From positions 1 to 47,929 of the forward strand of contig CAKZPT010000072.1 in the NCBI GenBank assembly GCA_937139365.1: a stretch of 47,929 nucleotides of DNA, read 5' to 3'. Below the pieces are notes generated by a model, which saw only the letters and a program-made list of their open reading frames with translations, did not search any database and was not told the origin of the DNA. Position 1 is the first letter of the stretch, and every line of letters begins with the position of its first letter. The DNA is from an uncultured bacterium. Lineage in GTDB: Bacteria; Verrucomicrobiota; Kiritimatiellia; PWTM01. The translations under genes and the position numbers were made by a program. Positions 2,130 through 47,929 of this stretch are shown here, in pieces.

Positions 2130-5100
2130 TCAGCAGCGCCGGCGACGGCGGGGGAGGCCCGCCGCAAGCAGGGCCAGCCCGACAAGCCCCAACGTTCCGG
2201 GTTCGGGCACCACGGTCAGCGTCACGTCGTCCTCGTAACCTGACAGCGTGCCGTAGTTGATTTGGAACAAGTTGGCTCCCGCCGCGAAGGTCGTGTTGTC
2301 CGGCAGGCCGCCGAACGTCGAGGCGTCGATCGTCCCCCATCCGCTGATGATCGGGATGACCGCCCCCAGCGTCAGGGGGGTCGGCGCCAGCACCGACAAC
2401 GTCGCCCCGTTCAGCTCCAGCTCGTACAACGGGCCCATCAGCAACTGGTCATACTGGCCCGCCAGCGTTCCCAGCACCTCCGCCACGTACGTCGCCCCAG
2501 ATTGGAACGTCACGTCGCCCACCACCGTCAGCGCCCCCGGGCTGGTCCCCGGCTTCACGAACGACCCGCTCTCCGCGATCAGCCCGCCCGTCAGCGTGCC
2601 GTTCCCCTGCAGCGTCTGCCCCGCCGCCAGCCGCAGCGTCTGGTCTACCCGCGGGTTCACATTCAGCGTCGCCCCCGCGTCGATCTGGATCGTGTGGGCG
2701 TTGCGGATCGAGCCGGTGCCCGACAGCGCCAGCGTGCCGCTCATTACCCGCGCCAGCCCGCTGAAGCTGTTGCTCGCCAGCAGCGTCAGGGTCGCCGGGC
2801 CATCCTTCAGGATGCTCAGCGCCGCCGCCGGCGCGTCCGCCTCCGTCGGCGACCAGTACGTCCCATCCCGGATCGTCGCCGAGACCGTCGCGTTGGTGAA
2901 CTGGCAGATCCGGAAGCTGCCCGGCTGCGTGCCCGCGTTCTCGATGAACGAGTTCGTCGTCAGGTCGCTGCCGAAGTAATCGCTCGTCACGTTGTCGGCC
3001 TTGCCGTCGGTGAACAGCGTGCCGATCGTCACCTGGCTGCCGAACGCCTGCAGGTGGGCGTCGTGCCGCAGTACGACCACCACGTTGGACGAGATCGCCG
3101 CCGTCGGCAGCCCGTCGTTATTTCCGAAGCGGACGAAGTGCTCCTTGTCGAAGTCCGGGCCCTGAGCGCCGGCGGACGTCCCCTGGCGGTTGCCGAGTTC
3201 GAGCGTGCCGGTCCATCCGGAGTTGTTGCCGCCGAGCGTCCACAGGACGTGCAAGTCGAGCTCCGGCGGCGCCTGCGCGCCCTTGTCCTGCGTATTCGGG
3301 CTGCCGCCCTGTTCGATCAGCGTGCGGATGCGCTTGTTGATGCCCGTGATACTGCCCTCCAGCCAAATGAACGTCCGTTCGTCGAACGTGTCGCCACCGT
3401 CCCCGCCCCGGTGAGTCAAGCTGTCGTCGCTGCGATGGAGCTGGAACTCGCGGTGGTTGCCGAAATTGTCGAAGCCCGTCAGATCGATATTGCCGGTGAA
3501 ACGAATCGAGTCGTTGTGGTCGCTGCGGAACACCGACAGCCGGGTCGCGTCCGACTCGCCCAGCACCCTGATGTTCTGCGGAACGATCGTCGTCTTGGCG
3601 AGACTATCTTGCTCCGGCCGGACGCGGAACGCCACAAGGCCCCGGTTCGTGTTCGCGGCGATGCCGATGACGATATTCGACGCGTTCGGCGTGGGGAACG
3701 GGCCGCTGGTGACCATGTCCACGACGCCATCCTGCACGCGGATCTCGCCGGTGAACTCGGGGCTGAACTGGCGGATCAGCAAGGCGCCGTCGCCTTCTTT
3801 CACGATGCTGCCGGGGCCGAGTATGTAGCCGGCGTCCGTGTTGAGGTTGAAATCTTCGGCCTCCACAAACACCGTCGCGTCGCCGAGGAACCGAATGGGC
3901 GCATTCCACCGGCGGCTTTGGAAGTTGTCGTCGGGATTGAGGACCGCCAGCATCGCGCCGTGTTCCAGCGTCAGCCACTCGCGGATGTCCGCCGAGGAGT
4001 TCTCGCCCAGCCCGTTGGTGGGAATGTTGATGATCAGGCTGGCGCCGGAGCGCACGATGGTGCCGTCGAAGAACGAGCGCGATGTGCCGAAGACCTCGTT
4101 TGTCAGGTTGAAGCGGTCCACCTTCAGCACGCCGCCGCGGATGTCGATCGCGCCCTGGATCCAGTTACTGACCGAGGGCGTCCCGATCGTGAGGCTCGCC
4201 CCCACCTGAGTGCCCGGCCCGCTCTTGATGTAGTCGCCATGGCCGAGGTTCGGGAGGACCGCGCCGAAGAGATTCGTCTCGCTGTCGATGCGCCCGAAGT
4301 TGGTCACGGTCCGGCCGGCGTCCACCCAGATCTGGCCGCCGTCGCCGCCGACGACGATGTTGTTGCTGAACGACATGGTCTGCGTCAACCGCAGCACGCC
4401 GCCCCGCAGTTCGAACTGGTTGGTGGACTGCCCGAGCCGGGCGGGATCGTCGACCACCAGCACGCCGCCGTTCAGGAACACCCGGCCCGCAAACGGGTTG
4501 GCCCCGCTGAGCGTCGTGGTCGAGACGCCCGAATGCGTGAAGCTCACGGGTCCGGTGATCGCGGCCGAGATGTTGAACCCGTACGGAGAATAGTTGTGGA
4601 GGATCACCTCTCCCGACTGGCTGCCGAGGAAGCCGTTGGCGATGCCCTGCGGCCCGCCCAAGCCGTCCTCCGAACCCCGGGTCACCAAAATGCCGCCGTC
4701 GGCGACATTCAGCTGGTTGCCCCTGAGATTGAGGTTCATGAAGAGGTTCGTGTCGAACCGCAACGACCCGACCACGTCGGCGGGCCACAGCGTCGGGGAG
4801 CCATTCCGCACGTCCGTGTGATACCCGATTTTACCGTAGGCATCGATCGAGTAGCCCGTGAACGGCTCGATATGGACGCTGCCGCTTTGCGTCCTGGCCC
4901 ACGTGAGCGACTCGAACGTCGTATTGCTGCTGAAGACGGCCCACGAACCGAGGCGGATGTTGGGCGTTTGGCCGAAGAGGAGCCCCGCCCCCCCGCCGAG
5001 CGTGGTGCCGTAGATCACGTGCACCGTGCCGCCGGTTTGGCGGGTCACGGTCGAGCCGGCGAAGTTGGCCACGTGCAACAAATTGGACTGGGTCGCGCCG

Positions 5101-5312
5101 GCGGGCCGCACGCGGAGCACGGAGTCGCCGGCCATGATCACGAGGTTGCTGTTGAGCATCTCCGTGGCAACCGATCCGTTCGCGCTGCCGTGGAACGTCA
5201 GGTCGCCGCCGGCCAGCACAAGTTGCGCACCGTTGTCGCGCGTGCGCCGCTGCGTGAGGTTGGCGGAGGAGCCGGGGCTGCGGTCGAGCACTAGTTCGCC
5301 GCCGAAGAGCAT
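2130..5312 (-). CDS. C-terminal open segment of the giant repeat protein
   Basis: A 1,060-codon open stretch carrying the last half of the disrupted gene. It contains repeated motifs in which a hydrophobic strand, a G-G-L or SGA turn and a V-N-G-G strand alternate, as in autotransporter passenger repeats. The final ~200 residues hold the clearest copies, followed by a VPEPGT sorting motif, a hydrophobic helix and an RRRRR end. The ATG at 5312 has no ribosome binding site, and the frame continues upstream with sensible sequence (EANDIFGF), so it is a fragment, not a separate gene. Automated annotation would probably call it as its own CDS. Confidence 0.6.
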   Translation of the reverse strand: MLFGGELVLDRSPGSSANLTQRRTRDNGAQLVLAGGDLTFHGSANGSVATEMLNSNLVIMAGDSVLRVRPAGATQSNLLHVANFAGSTVTRQTGGTVHVIYGTTLGGGAGLLFGQTPNIRLGSWAVFSSNTTFESLTWARTQSGSVHIEPFTGYSIDAYGKIGYHTDVRNGSPTLWPADVVGSLRFDTNLFMNLNLRGNQLNVADGGILVTRGSEDGLGGPQGIANGFLGSQSGEVILHNYSPYGFNISAAITGPVSFTHSGVSTTTLSGANPFAGRVFLNGGVLVVDDPARLGQSTNQFELRGGVLRLTQTMSFSNNIVVGGDGGQIWVDAGRTVTNFGRIDSETNLFGAVLPNLGHGDYIKSGPGTQVGASLTIGTPSVSNWIQGAIDIRGGVLKVDRFNLTNEVFGTSRSFFDGTIVRSGASLIINIPTNGLGENSSADIREWLTLEHGAMLAVLNPDDNFQSRRWNAPIRFLGDATVFVEAEDFNLNTDAGYILGPGSIVKEGDGALLIRQFSPEFTGEIRVQDGVVDMVTSGPFPTPNASNIVIGIAANTNRGLVAFRVRPEQDSLAKTTIVPQNIRVLGESDATRLSVFRSDHNDSIRFTGNIDLTGFDNFGNHREFQLHRSDDSLTHRGGDGGDTFDERTFIWLEGSITGINKRIRTLIEQGGSPNTQDKGAQAPPELDLHVLWTLGGNNSGWTGTLELGNRQGTSAGAQGPDFDKEHFVRFGNNDGLPTAAISSNVVVVLRHDAHLQAFGSQVTIGTLFTDGKADNVTSDYFGSDLTTNSFIENAGTQPGSFRICQFTNATVSATIRDGTYWSPTEADAPAAALSILKDGPATLTLLASNSFSGLARVMSGTLALSGTGSIRNAHTIQIDAGATLNVNPRVDQTLRLAAGQTLQGNGTLTGGLIAESGSFVKPGTSPGALTVVGDVTFQSGATYVAEVLGTLAGQYDQLLMGPLYELELNGATLSVLAPTPLTLGAVIPIISGWGTIDASTFGGLPDNTTFAAGANLFQINYGTLSGYEDDVTLTVVPEPGTLGLVGLALLAAGLPRRRRRC

Positions 5313-5338
5313 GAACCCGAAAATGTCGTTCGCCTCGC

Positions 5339-7475
5339 TTAGGAGGCATGGTCCGGCCCCTGAAGCCAGACCTGCCCGTCGCCGATTTTCACGAACCGCG
5401 AGGCGGCGTCACCGCGCAGCGACTGCACGATGTTTACCCGGCCGACGCTGGCGGTGCCGGCGGCCGAATTGTAGCCGTTGTGCGCGAAGAACCGGACGGC
5501 CCGATTCATCGTGATCCAGTTGTCCTCGGTTGAGGGACTCGGGTCGTTGAAGCTGTTGCCGATCGTCACCGTGGAGTCGAGGGGTCCGAAGTGCTCCAGG
5601 CCGATCGTCAGGGTGCTGTTCGTCTGGTCGGTCGTGGCCGTCCAGCGCTCGGCGTTGAACGACTGCCCGTTCCTCGTCAGCAGCAGCGTGACGCTGCCGC
5701 CGGCGTCGGTGCCGGGCCCGCCGAGCTGGAATCCGCTGTGGCCGTTGGCGAAGTTGGCGTTGGTCAGCGTCTCGGCGTCCCAAAACTCGCCCTTGCCCTG
5801 AGCCGGATCGCCGAGGAAGCGGATCGTGCCCTGCTCCGCGAAGAGCCGGCCGGTCGCCTTCCACGGGTTGTAGATGTTCACGGCCAGTTCGTCGCCGTAG
5901 CTGGCGAGGGCGGGGCCGTCGATCCGGACGCGCAGGATGGCGTTCTCGGTCGAGATGCGGTTGGTGATGTCGCCGACGGAGACGGCGTTGTGGGTGGCGC
6001 CGGTGGAGAGGAAGGGGCGCGCCTGGCCGCCGACGAAGATGTCGCCGACCGTGCCGCGGAGGTTCAGGATGCCGGCCGAGCTGCCCAGCGTCAGGCGGCT
6101 GGGATCGTTGAGCCAGATGTCCGCCGACGGCGTTGGCCCGTCCAGCGCGATGTCCCCGTTCATCGTCAGCGTGGGGTTCTGGCTGGCTTCGCCGACGACG
6201 AGCTGCGGCTCGTGGTGCGTCAGGCCGGTCGGGTCGGCCAGCCAGAGGCGGAGGTTTCCGTTCCAGACGTTGTGGTGGGACTCCGAGACCAGCGGGGCTC
6301 CTCCGCCGAACAACGGCATCACGACGATATCGGCGGGGTTATAGGAACCGCCCCCGTGGAGCCGGAGCCACCCGGTGCCGGTCAGGACGATCTCCGTGGC
6401 CGAGCCGAGCGCGGCGGGATCGCGCAGATACAGGGGCCCCTGCGGCACCGTCACGGCGCCCGCGATGTCGTTGGCCACGTCCAGCCACAACCCCGAGTCG
6501 CCGCTCTTGGTCAGCCCGTTCGCGGCCTCGATCCGACTGCGGATCAAGAGCGAATGACCGGATGCCAGATGCACGATCGCCTCGCGGTCGTTGTTCGCTC
6601 CGTCGAGGTCGAGGATGCCCCGCCACAGGTAGATGGCCCCGCCGGGATTGTCGTCGCCGGTGGCGCTCTGAGTGTCGCGGCCAACCAGCAGCATGCCGGA
6701 CTCGAGCGTCAGCCGGCGGCCGCGGTCCAGCAGTATCGTCCGGCCCATCTCGTTGGCGGTGGCGCCGGTGAAGTTCGTGGCGATGCCGATACGCAGGGCG
6801 TTCCACGTCACGTCGCCGAGGATCCGGTTCTTGACCATGTTGAGGGAGCCCCCTGGCCCGTTGGTTGAGGCGTTGATAACCACCGTCGTCGCGCGGAACT
6901 GGATGTTGACGTTCGCGTCGGCCTGCGCGTCGGCCTGCGTGATGTTGAGGAAGTTGGTCGCGCGGCCGCCGAAATGGACCATCTCGTCGTCCCGCAGCGT
7001 CCGCAGCCGATTGCCCTCCATCGTCATGAATTCGTCGGCGCGGTTGGGGGCGATGGTGAGGGCGTCGGTGCCGCCGGAGGTCCACGGCGGCGAGGCGATG
7101 TCCCCCGCGTCGCCGCCGAACACGCCCAGGACCAGTTTCCGGTTGACCGCCCCGACCCCGCCCGAGCCGCCGACCTGCGCCAGCGAGGCGCCGCCGTCCA
7201 GCAGCGTGACCGTCAGCATGTTCGGTCCGGCGTTGGTCGCCAGCGCGCCCTGCCCGACGTTGCTGGCGTGAAAACTGACCACGCTGCCGGGATCGCGCAC
7301 CAGCCGCGCCAGGCTCAGGGCGATCGGCTGGGGCGAGGTGTCGTCGGCGTCCAATTCGATCGCCAGCCAGCCGGCGCGGCCGGTCACGCTGCCGATCGTC
7401 TCCGAGGCGGGCTGGCTCGAATGGCCGCGGATTTCGAACCGGCCGTAGTTCTCGTTCAGGATCCACGCGGCGTCG
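5339..7475 (-). CDS. Middle open segment of the giant repeat protein
   Basis: About 710 codons in the same frame as the N-terminal segment. The first ~28 codons upstream of the first ATG (7387) are also convincing protein (DAAWILNENYGRF), which shows that the segment continues from the preceding one and is not an independent start. The composition is G/N/T/S rich with beta-helix-like periodicity, for example GSVTGRAGWLAIELD and repeated LTLGSSAGILNLRG-type turns. It ends at TAA 5339-5341; the next frame picks up the same style of sequence within a few codons. No catalytic motif is seen. Confidence 0.55.
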
Positions 7476-7478
7476 TTT

Positions 7479-7939
7479 GATCCGGTCGGGCAGGTTCGTG
7501 AAGCTGTTGTCGAGGTAGATGCCGCCGTCGCGCAGGATACGAAACCCCTCCACCTGCGGCAACTGTCCGGCCATGCGCAGGCCGATGCTGCCGTAGCCGC
7601 CGCGGCCGGCGTCGAGCGCGCGGGCCAGCCAGATCTGGCCGCTGAAATCGTTGGTCGGGTTCACCAGCTTCGCTTCGGACGAACCGACCTTCGTGAAGCC
7701 GCCGGTGCCCGAGAACGGGCCGGCGAAGACGTGCTGCCGGACCGACGAGGTCAAGCCGGCGAACGCGCCGGTCTCGTTCCACAGGAACGATTCGTTCGCG
7801 CCGCCGTTGAACGTGAACGAGCCGGTGAAGAGGGCCTGATGATTGGTCCAGTTGGCGCGGAGGGCGGAGGGGGTGGCGCCCAGCGCGCGCGAGAAGGTCT
7901 GGAACGCGCCGCGGTTGACGACGACGTTGAAGGTCTGGT
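7479..7939 (-). CDS. Short out-of-frame segment of the giant repeat protein
   Basis: About 150 codons that only make sense in the frame shifted relative to both neighbours: it runs from TFNVVVNRGAF through GTGGFTKVGSSEAKLV to NSFTNLPDRI. GGFTKVGSSEAKL is a typical autotransporter-associated repeat start. The frames on either side of it agree with each other, so the two bounding lesions are a one-base loss followed by a one-base gain. A caller would report it, if at all, as part of a longer ORF whose remainder is nonsense. Confidence 0.55.
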
Positions 7940-8848
7940 GATCACGCCGGCCGCGTTGGTGTTGTTGTCGCCGATGATCTGGAAAAAGGGCCACTGCGTG
8001 CGGTCCCTGACCGTCCCCTCGCCGATGTTGGTCGTCGCCCAGCCGGGATTGAGCGGATGCGCTTCCCCGCGGTCAACGACGCCCGGCGCCACCCCGATGA
8101 CGATGGTGCCGATCGAGGGGCGGACGAGGGGGTTCCCCTCGCGGACAGTGCCGCTGTCCATGTACAGCTCCACGACGCCGTCGCGCACGATGAAGTTGTT
8201 CACGTTGGTGACGATCCGGCGCAATATCAGATTGCCGTCCTCGGCCTTGACGACGTCGTAGCCGCGGCCGTCCAGTTCCCGGCTGCCGCCGGTGAAGGCC
8301 TGGTTGGTCGCCCCACCATGGAACGTCAAGCTATGGAAGCTGTCGATGTACAGCCCATCAGGATCCGTCACCCGGATGCCCACGTTGATCGTGTCGCTGC
8401 CGGTGCCGATGTTGAAGTTGTTCGTCGTCTGGCGAATGTGGTTGTCGCCGGAACCGTGCGAGAGGAGAGCCATCCGTCCGTCGCCGGTGTCGAACGTCAG
8501 CCACCGGCTGACCGTGTCGCTCGGTCCGCGGATGTGCGTTGCCGTCCCGCGGTCGGTGTCGCCGAAAAACAGGAAGCCGAGCGCCACGTCCACGTCCTGC
8601 GTGAAGACCGCCGACGAGCCCGTCAGTCCGCCGCCAAGGTTGTTGTTGCCGGTCAGCCACGCCCAGTGGCCGACGCCGTTGGCAATGGCGTTGTTGCTCC
8701 ACATGGAAGCGATGCTCCACACGCCGCCAAAGGTGGTGGCCCAGTAGCCGGTGACCTGCGCGCCGGCGGTCGCGGCGCACAACCCGAGCAGGATCGCGGA
8801 AACGCGAAGCGGCCCTTCGCTTCACCTGAAGCCGATCGTTGTTCTCAT
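7940..8848 (-). CDS. N-terminal segment of the giant repeat protein, with in-frame TGA
   Basis: About 300 codons. ATG 8848 is followed by MRTTIGFR, a TGA at 8822-8824, then SEGPLRV and the hydrophobic core of a signal peptide (SAILLGLCAATAGAQ), all in one frame. Without the TGA this is a normal signal peptide. The mature part begins VTGYWATTFGGVWS, an N-terminal pattern common in large secreted repeat proteins. The segment ends in frame at IGDNNTNAAGVIT before the first frameshift. No ATG or GTG gives a good alternative start between the TGA and the hydrophobic core; only CTG or TTG codons occur. Confidence 0.55.
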
Positions 8849-9186
8849 CGCATCGTCTCCATAGTGCTGTCACCACTGTAGACGTATTATGGACGGCACA
8901 AAAGATTGGTCAATAGGCTTTCCGAAAAATTCAGAGAGATTTTTTACACACTCGCTTGATGACAAATCGATTACGTATCGCATGCACCGTCGGATCGATG
9001 TTCCGTCTGGGAAAAACGGCTGGAACGAGCTCGAGCCCGACTGGTCTTTCGGTGCCTCGTGCAGGAGGTGACCTTACAGCGAACAGCCAGCGGCATCAAC
9101 GGCGGCTTACAACGGGCGCGCGGTTGCCCCAGCGCCGCAGCGCGGGTATTAATGGAGCCGCGCGGCGCATCCGCGCGATAACCACC
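8849..9186. other. Divergent intergenic region, AT-rich on the left
   Basis: 338 nt between two divergent starts. The left 100 nt are AT-rich and hold the minus-strand promoter. The right part is GC-rich and should contain the cysS promoter, but no convincing plus-strand -35/-10 pair was found. Short open frames here (for example 8889-9071) lack start signals and protein-like composition. No T-box-like structure was recognised. Confidence 0.5.
8886..8913 (-). promoter_or_regulatory. Sigma70-like promoter of the giant secreted gene
   Basis: On the minus strand, TTGACC (8908-8913) is followed after 16 nt by CATAAT (8886-8891); each box matches five of six consensus bases. The predicted start is about 30 nt before ATG 8848. 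The stretch just upstream (8915-8950) is AT-rich, unlike the surrounding genome, and could act as an UP element. The promoter still looks intact although the gene is broken. Confidence 0.6.
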
Positions 9187-43766: not shown

Positions 43767-43882
43767 CCCCGGCAACGCGCTACTCTCCCGCGGCCACCGC
43801 CGCAGTACCATCGCCGCTGAGAGTCTTAACGACCGTGTTCGGAATGGGAACGGGTGTTGTCCTCCCGCCATGGTCACCGGGG
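43767..43882 (-). rRNA. 5S ribosomal RNA
   Basis: About 116 nt. Ends are mutually complementary (CCCGGTGACCATGG at the 5' side, TTGCCGGG at the 3' side), and the internal CCCGTTCCCATTCCGAACACGG and GGGAGAGTAG segments are universal 5S features. Exact ends are estimated from the terminal helix. Confidence 0.95.
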
Positions 43883-43935
43883 AAAAAACTCCGCGCAGGA
43901 ATGGGGAAGCCGGTCGCCGAGCGAACGGGCACCGG

Positions 43936-46892
<2,957 letters not shown>

Positions 46893-46960
46893 AACAATGT
46901 CTCGGTGTCCCGTCCCCGCCCGAACGGGCGGGTCGGGCTTCCCCAATTCCTGCGCGTCGA

Positions 46961-46971
46961 TGTCAAAGAAC
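46961..46971 (-). promoter_or_regulatory. boxA antitermination element before 23S
   Basis: GTTCTTTGACA on the minus strand, in the tRNA-Ile to 23S spacer about 70 nt before 23S. It matches the boxA pattern bound by NusB-S10 in rRNA antitermination. Identified by sequence resemblance only. Confidence 0.55.
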
Positions 46972-47016
46972 CACCCCGTTGCCGGGGAAATTCACGTCGG
47001 CGACGGACCAGCCGCC

Positions 47017-47093
47017 TGGTGGGCGTGACTGGAGTCGAACCAGTGACCTCGTCCTTATCAGGGACGCGCTCTAACCAACTGAGCTACACGCCC
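47017..47093 (-). tRNA. tRNA-Ile(GAT)
   Basis: 77 nt with encoded CCA. Acceptor GGGCGTG/CACGCCC; anticodon loop CTGATAA gives GAT. It lies in the 16S-23S spacer on the 23S side, the usual partner of tRNA-Ala there. Confidence 0.98.
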
Positions 47094-47197
47094 TACTTCG
47101 CGCGTCGGCTTCGCCTTGCGCTTCGTAGGGCAAGCCCGCGGTCGGCGGCTTGCCATCCGCAGCCCAAGCCCGCCCCTCGCGAACGCGGAGCGAAGGA

Positions 47198-47273
47198 TGG
47201 TGGAGGCAACCGGGTTCGAACCGGTGACCCCAAGCTTGCAAAGCTTGTGCTCTGCCAACTGAGCTATGCCCCC
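47198..47273 (-). tRNA. tRNA-Ala(TGC)
   Basis: 76 nt with encoded CCA. Acceptor GGGGGCA/TGCCTCC includes the G3-U70 wobble that marks Ala identity. Anticodon loop TTTGCAA gives TGC. It is on the 16S side of the spacer; the Ala-then-Ile order is the reverse of the Ile-Ala order found in E. coli rrn operons. Confidence 0.98.
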
Positions 47274-47380
47274 GCCCTTCGGCGACAACACAGCCACCGG
47301 CCGATCAATCGGTCCGTCCTGCCGTCGATGACGTACGACCCGCTTCGGATCAGAAACGGTGCGGCGTGCGCGAGCTCGAT

Positions 47381-47398
47381 CGCGCGCGTGCGCGCGCG
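47381..47398. repeat. Alternating CG/TG tract in the 16S-tRNA-Ala spacer
   Basis: 18 nt of strict pyrimidine-purine alternation (CGCGCGCGTG then CGCGCGCG), also nearly self-complementary. Such sequence can adopt Z-DNA or a hairpin in the rRNA precursor. No function can be assigned. Confidence 0.5.
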
Positions 47399-47435
47399 GT
47401 TATACTCTCCCGACCCGCTCTCGCGGGCCTGGATG

Positions 47436-47929
<494 letters not shown>

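Follow-up and report, generated by a model that had tools for sequence, protein, structure and literature searches.

A candidate very young pseudogene of a giant PEP-CTERM repeat protein in the draft genome of an uncultured Kiritimatiellia bacterium

Analysis of an entire contig (C72; the window, 47,929 nucleotides) from a 97% complete draft genome (2.82 Mb, 117 contigs) reveals, on the minus strand between positions 8848 and 2130, a single gene with a product of about 2,240 residues, which according to three-frame translation is split across two alternating frames. Within this one gene we found three frame changes, together with a TGA close to its start, and we found unbroken orthologues in relatives and undiminished past constraint. 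Most likely, we are dealing with an ordinary pseudogene that is very young and derives from a known kind of protein, or else with a draft-genome artefact resembling one. To the former reading, i.e. a gene inactivated very recently by small mutations, we would give, from the sequence evidence, a probability of roughly 0.55.

The gene opens with an ATG at 8848 and closes with a stop codon at 2132-2130, and its long open stretches switch between the two frames. In tblastn searches three intact orthologues cover 8806-2136 as four colinear pieces, each in its expected frame, with 54-68% identity, which bears out the preliminary description of one coherent secreted repeat protein. Piece 1 (7940-8848, like all the others on the minus strand) comprises the start codon, the signal-peptide codons and the N-terminal part; it is 55-58% identical to the three orthologues, whose alignments begin at 8806, 8761 or 8533 and run downward. 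Piece 2 (7478-7945) lies in the second frame (54-55% identity to the three orthologues) and piece 3 (5342-7477) again in the first (59-63%), and piece 4 (2130-5340) encodes strand repeats (TIGR02601/PF12951) and a PEP-CTERM tail, and ends with the stop codon. The combination of frame alternation, orthologue cover and codon-position signal is far beyond chance. Upstream of the gene we found a sigma-70-like promoter match (8886-8913, minus strand), a match to the consensus only (10/12, compared with 0.3 expected in shuffled sequences), and a scan for promoters and terminators returned nothing besides this one promoter-like site. The 1010-codon open reading frame that runs antisense to piece 4 (2262-5294, plus strand) is probably a side effect of G+C-rich codon usage. 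Elsewhere in the window, a small second PEP-CTERM protein is encoded in an open frame near the broken gene (678-1397), and the other end (43767-47929) carries genes for 5S and 23S rRNA, tRNA-Ile, tRNA-Ala and the 3' part of 16S rRNA, within which the contig terminates.

The three internal frame changes were located by tblastn with the three orthologues and by local comparison, which gave a net shift of one base at each, in the order -1, +1, -1: the first at 7931-7952, the second at 7474-7479 and the third at 5339-5342, where it creates a TAA (5341-5339), all on the minus strand. A Viterbi analysis of codon usage recovered the first two at 7935 and 7478 without any input from orthologues, and the third at 5349 at the lowest penalty only. 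The in-frame TGA (8822-8824, minus strand) is codon 9 after the ATG and falls among the signal-peptide codons. It may be a nonsense codon or the sign of another frame change, as the orthologues do not align there. Thus, three of the four small lesions reported earlier are confirmed by comparison with orthologues, at positions within or touching the intervals then proposed, and the fourth may equally well be a further frame change. The putative signal peptide itself was assigned by eye from a hydrophobic stretch ahead of the aligned start, and it is interrupted by this first lesion.

Profile searches assign piece 4 to a known kind of protein. TIGR02601 matches it in two stretches with 56.5 bits (cut-off 19.85, E-value 1.7e-15), and PF12951, likewise in two stretches, with 29.4 bits (cut-off 27, E-value 8.5e-7). 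The PEP-CTERM tail scores above the cut-off of TIGR02595 (17.3 bits, cut-off 16) and slightly below that of PF07589 (18.9 bits, cut-off 20.7), and its P-E-P residues are common to the four aligned copies. Pieces 1 and 3 gave no family match, and no known enzymatic domain was found by profile search in pieces 1, 3 or 4. The fold model of piece 4 consists mostly of short strands and has low confidence (mean pLDDT 51); the best PDB matches of this model are mostly beta-helices, e.g. the passenger of antigen 43, none of which reaches an E-value of 0.001, and a sequence search of the PDB returned no match. We also found that the last ~230 residues including the PEP-CTERM tail (window 2139-2830) recur with 43-61% identity in numerous proteins of the family that are otherwise dissimilar, i.e. 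they constitute a shared C-terminal module. An exosortase gene (PF09721, E-value 1.9e-52) is present, with its frame open, both here and in the three other genomes of the genus; therefore, the sorting system itself has not been lost.

Orthologues of the gene were identified with piece 3 in all three other genomes of the genus (60-65% identity), each in a single open frame, with lengths of 2413, 2304 and 2122 residues, the last copy being cut by a contig end. A search of nine genomes of the same family with piece 4 revealed one more, of 2467 residues, also in a single open frame (genome G008), and four of the nine family genomes gave no match at 1e-30. The comparison with relatives proposed in the preliminary description has therefore yielded a single unbroken frame in 4/4 genomes holding the gene and no shared split. 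Five neighbouring proteins found no match in the sampled sequence of the relatives, where the locus is either non-syntenic or these genes lie outside the sample.

In all four pieces, divergence in pairs that include the window copy is greater at third codon positions (0.45-0.54) than at second positions (0.19-0.29). A relative-rate test on piece 4 with G008 as the outgroup counted 67, 80 and 81 residues unique to the window copy vs 123, 142 and 129 unique to G003, G001 and G002, respectively, and a test on part of piece 3 pointed in the same direction. As there is no excess in the window copy, amino-acid constraint lasted until very recently, or else the gene is unbroken in the living cell; this test leads us to reject long-term relaxed constraint. 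In an unrooted comparison the branch leading to the window copy was longer, a pattern that RpoB shows even more strongly because the window genome lies farther from the rest of the genus than any other. The earlier argument that inactivation would be very recent, since no other nonsense codon was seen, holds in its conclusion, which the relative-rate test supports if the lesions are real. The absence of stops is by itself weak evidence because only ~2.5% of point changes make a stop (a figure computed under an assumed mutation bias), and about one stop is to be expected alongside three to four indels.

The scenario that we favour would then read as follows. One gene would have encoded a PEP-CTERM protein of giant size, secreted, sorted by exosortase and built with autotransporter-type beta-strand repeats; in this lineage it would very recently have been inactivated by three one-base frame changes, the last of which terminates the frame at 5341, and by a lesion among the signal-peptide codons. 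In the sequence as it is, none of the pieces combines an export signal with the PEP-CTERM anchor, so that a functional surface protein would not be produced. Other accessory genes of this genome are broken as well. The lesions would presumably reside in the DNA of the living cell and reflect neutral decay of a dispensable surface protein.

The main alternative, possible if somewhat less likely, is that the organism has an unbroken gene and that the draft contains local small errors, caused e.g. by low coverage or mixed strains near contig ends. Comparison with orthologues (excluding pairs below 50% identity or 70% coverage and query genes shorter than 120 residues) revealed lesions in 5/131 genes of this genome (148.5 kb), namely 10 frame changes and 4 stops, 14 lesions altogether, and the reverse control in the relatives revealed one gene of 140 (148.7 kb) with a stop and no frame change. 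Such a genome-wide excess of frame changes is what errors would produce, and the Viterbi analysis indicates it likewise. With a strong frame-change penalty, it flagged 9 internal signals across the PEP-CTERM-bearing contigs (290 kb, to which the window belongs) and 11 across 20 others of this genome (265 kb), vs 0 in 235 kb (G001), 2 in 200 kb (G003) and 0 in 20 kb (G002) of the relatives. These signals include false ones: among the 11 from the 20 other contigs, a random sample, two correspond to neighbouring genes according to Pfam (TrmD/L19; an ExbD gene), and three (on C15, C17 and C19) are unconfirmed, as are those on C66, C115 and C34 near 1300-1880, which gave no Pfam hit. A further candidate signal lies at 5516 on C34. 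Others were corroborated by Pfam, with one domain continuous across the change on C3, C6, C10 (at 2411) and C14, and with successive parts of one enzyme on the two sides of the change on C5 (two changes) and C18; the broken domains so confirmed include a fucosidase, a sulfatase, a rhamnosidase and an FAD oxidoreductase.

Two further lesioned loci are on contig C75. A second giant PEP-CTERM repeat gene (8.5 kb, 17311-8746) has two frame changes and three nonsense codons, all three at positions where the orthologue has tryptophan; the orthologue in G001 is whole (2876 residues). Nonsense codons of this sort are not expected from indel-type read errors, and their presence in the mix of lesions speaks against a purely erroneous consensus. 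On the same contig, a gene beside the contig end (249-1723) contains three frame changes and one stop in 1.5 kb, its middle part being 82% identical to its relative in G003, a concentration that favours errors. We also noticed a PEP-CTERM repeat gene on C46 (2182-5107) with the repeats and the tail in different frames and a change near 2704; a search for a full-length orthologue that would confirm this change found none.

Several further features of the lesions are those expected of consensus errors. All cleanly measured frame changes (three in the window gene, those on C6 and part of those at C75:249-1723) are one-base shifts, which also counts against decay; no larger deletion was seen, although such deletions were possibly missed through the 70% coverage filter. 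Lesioned sites are somewhat closer to contig ends (p 0.03-0.04), and the broken copy evolves no faster than the others, as expected if it is in fact unbroken. Runs of at least six identical bases occur within 30 bases of 5/21 putative frame-change sites vs 3.7% of random windows, and such runs are described in PMC9262707 as giving rise to frame errors in draft assemblies from long reads. The three sites in the window, however, have neither a run of at least five bases nor a simple repeat within 30 bases. Errors at methylation motifs were considered and rejected, as GATC is found near 8/21 putative sites (38%) and in 36% of random windows, i.e. without enrichment.

The distribution of lesions, on the other hand, argues for decay. 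They are strongly clustered in few genes: a null model with even spread put the 14 lesions in at least 8 genes in all 20,000 draws, compared with 5 observed, a test biased by the fact that the window and C75 were chosen for their lesions. None of the 32 genes with at least 80% identity is lesioned, which by itself is not significant. Natural mutation yields 10 to 20 substitutions per indel; at this ratio 2.5-5 stops are predicted, and the observed 10 frame changes and 4 stops match this expectation. Among 29 genes compared in the window, the broken gene is the sole lesioned one, the other 28 of 28 being clean, and open frames lie within 0.4 kb on both sides of it. It had been proposed that such clean neighbours argue against assembly error. 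The observation stands for all neighbours compared, but the argument is weakened by similar lesions on other contigs, where they hit ordinary enzymes and the second giant gene. Clean neighbours are also insufficient because small lesions cluster gene by gene.

The two remaining alternatives fare poorly. Large beta-repeat passenger proteins of the surface are often phase-variable, and the window gene encodes a protein of this type, so that switching by frame changes at repeat tracts was suggested at the outset. This is very improbable, and we reject it for want of any slippage tract at the lesion sites; moreover, several independent lesions would have to revert simultaneously, and four relatives have the gene in one unbroken frame. 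Just as improbable is a protein naturally split into separately expressed genes, for which an ATG at 5312 close behind the TAA at 5341-5339 could be cited, as the downstream pieces lack an export signal and all four orthologues are single frames, which led us to reject separate genes.

If the preferred reading of recent inactivation is correct, the gene can serve as a case study of a giant surface-protein pseudogene at a very young stage. The analysis also carries a caution, namely that clean neighbours on one contig are no proof of a lesion-free draft genome. A broader interpretation, which we consider doubtful, is that the lineage has just lost its largest exosortase-sorted surface proteins jointly (the window gene, the 8.5-kb gene on C75 and one on C46) and has retained the exosortase along with several PEP-CTERM repeat proteins of smaller size, so that surface remodelling would be in progress. 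Such joint loss, if true, would show the speed at which giant surface proteins are given up, the sorting machinery staying.

Our literature searches returned no paper joining PEP-CTERM, Kiritimatiell- and sulfatase, and none matching three of four terms for giant beta-helix PEP-CTERM proteins. The locus can be compared with three known systems. It resembles ordinary bacterial pseudogenes in its several small lesions, in the existence of intact orthologues and in a coding signal that is mostly kept, and differs from them in that its recency and the draft state of the genome leave room for consensus error. With the autotransporter-associated beta-strand repeat proteins (TIGR02601, PF12951 PATR) it shares two repeat stretches above the cut-offs; the fold model, itself of low confidence, gives weak matches to beta-helix passengers, and a PEP-CTERM tail takes the place of the barrel: no family of the C-terminal translocator barrel of classical type V autotransporters was found in piece 4. 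Compared with the PEP-CTERM/exosortase (EpsH) proteins, as described in PMC1569441, the window copy is unusual in being broken and in having its signal peptide interrupted, but it agrees with them in the absence of a known enzymatic domain, in the C-terminal PEP-CTERM tail and in the presence of an exosortase in the genome.
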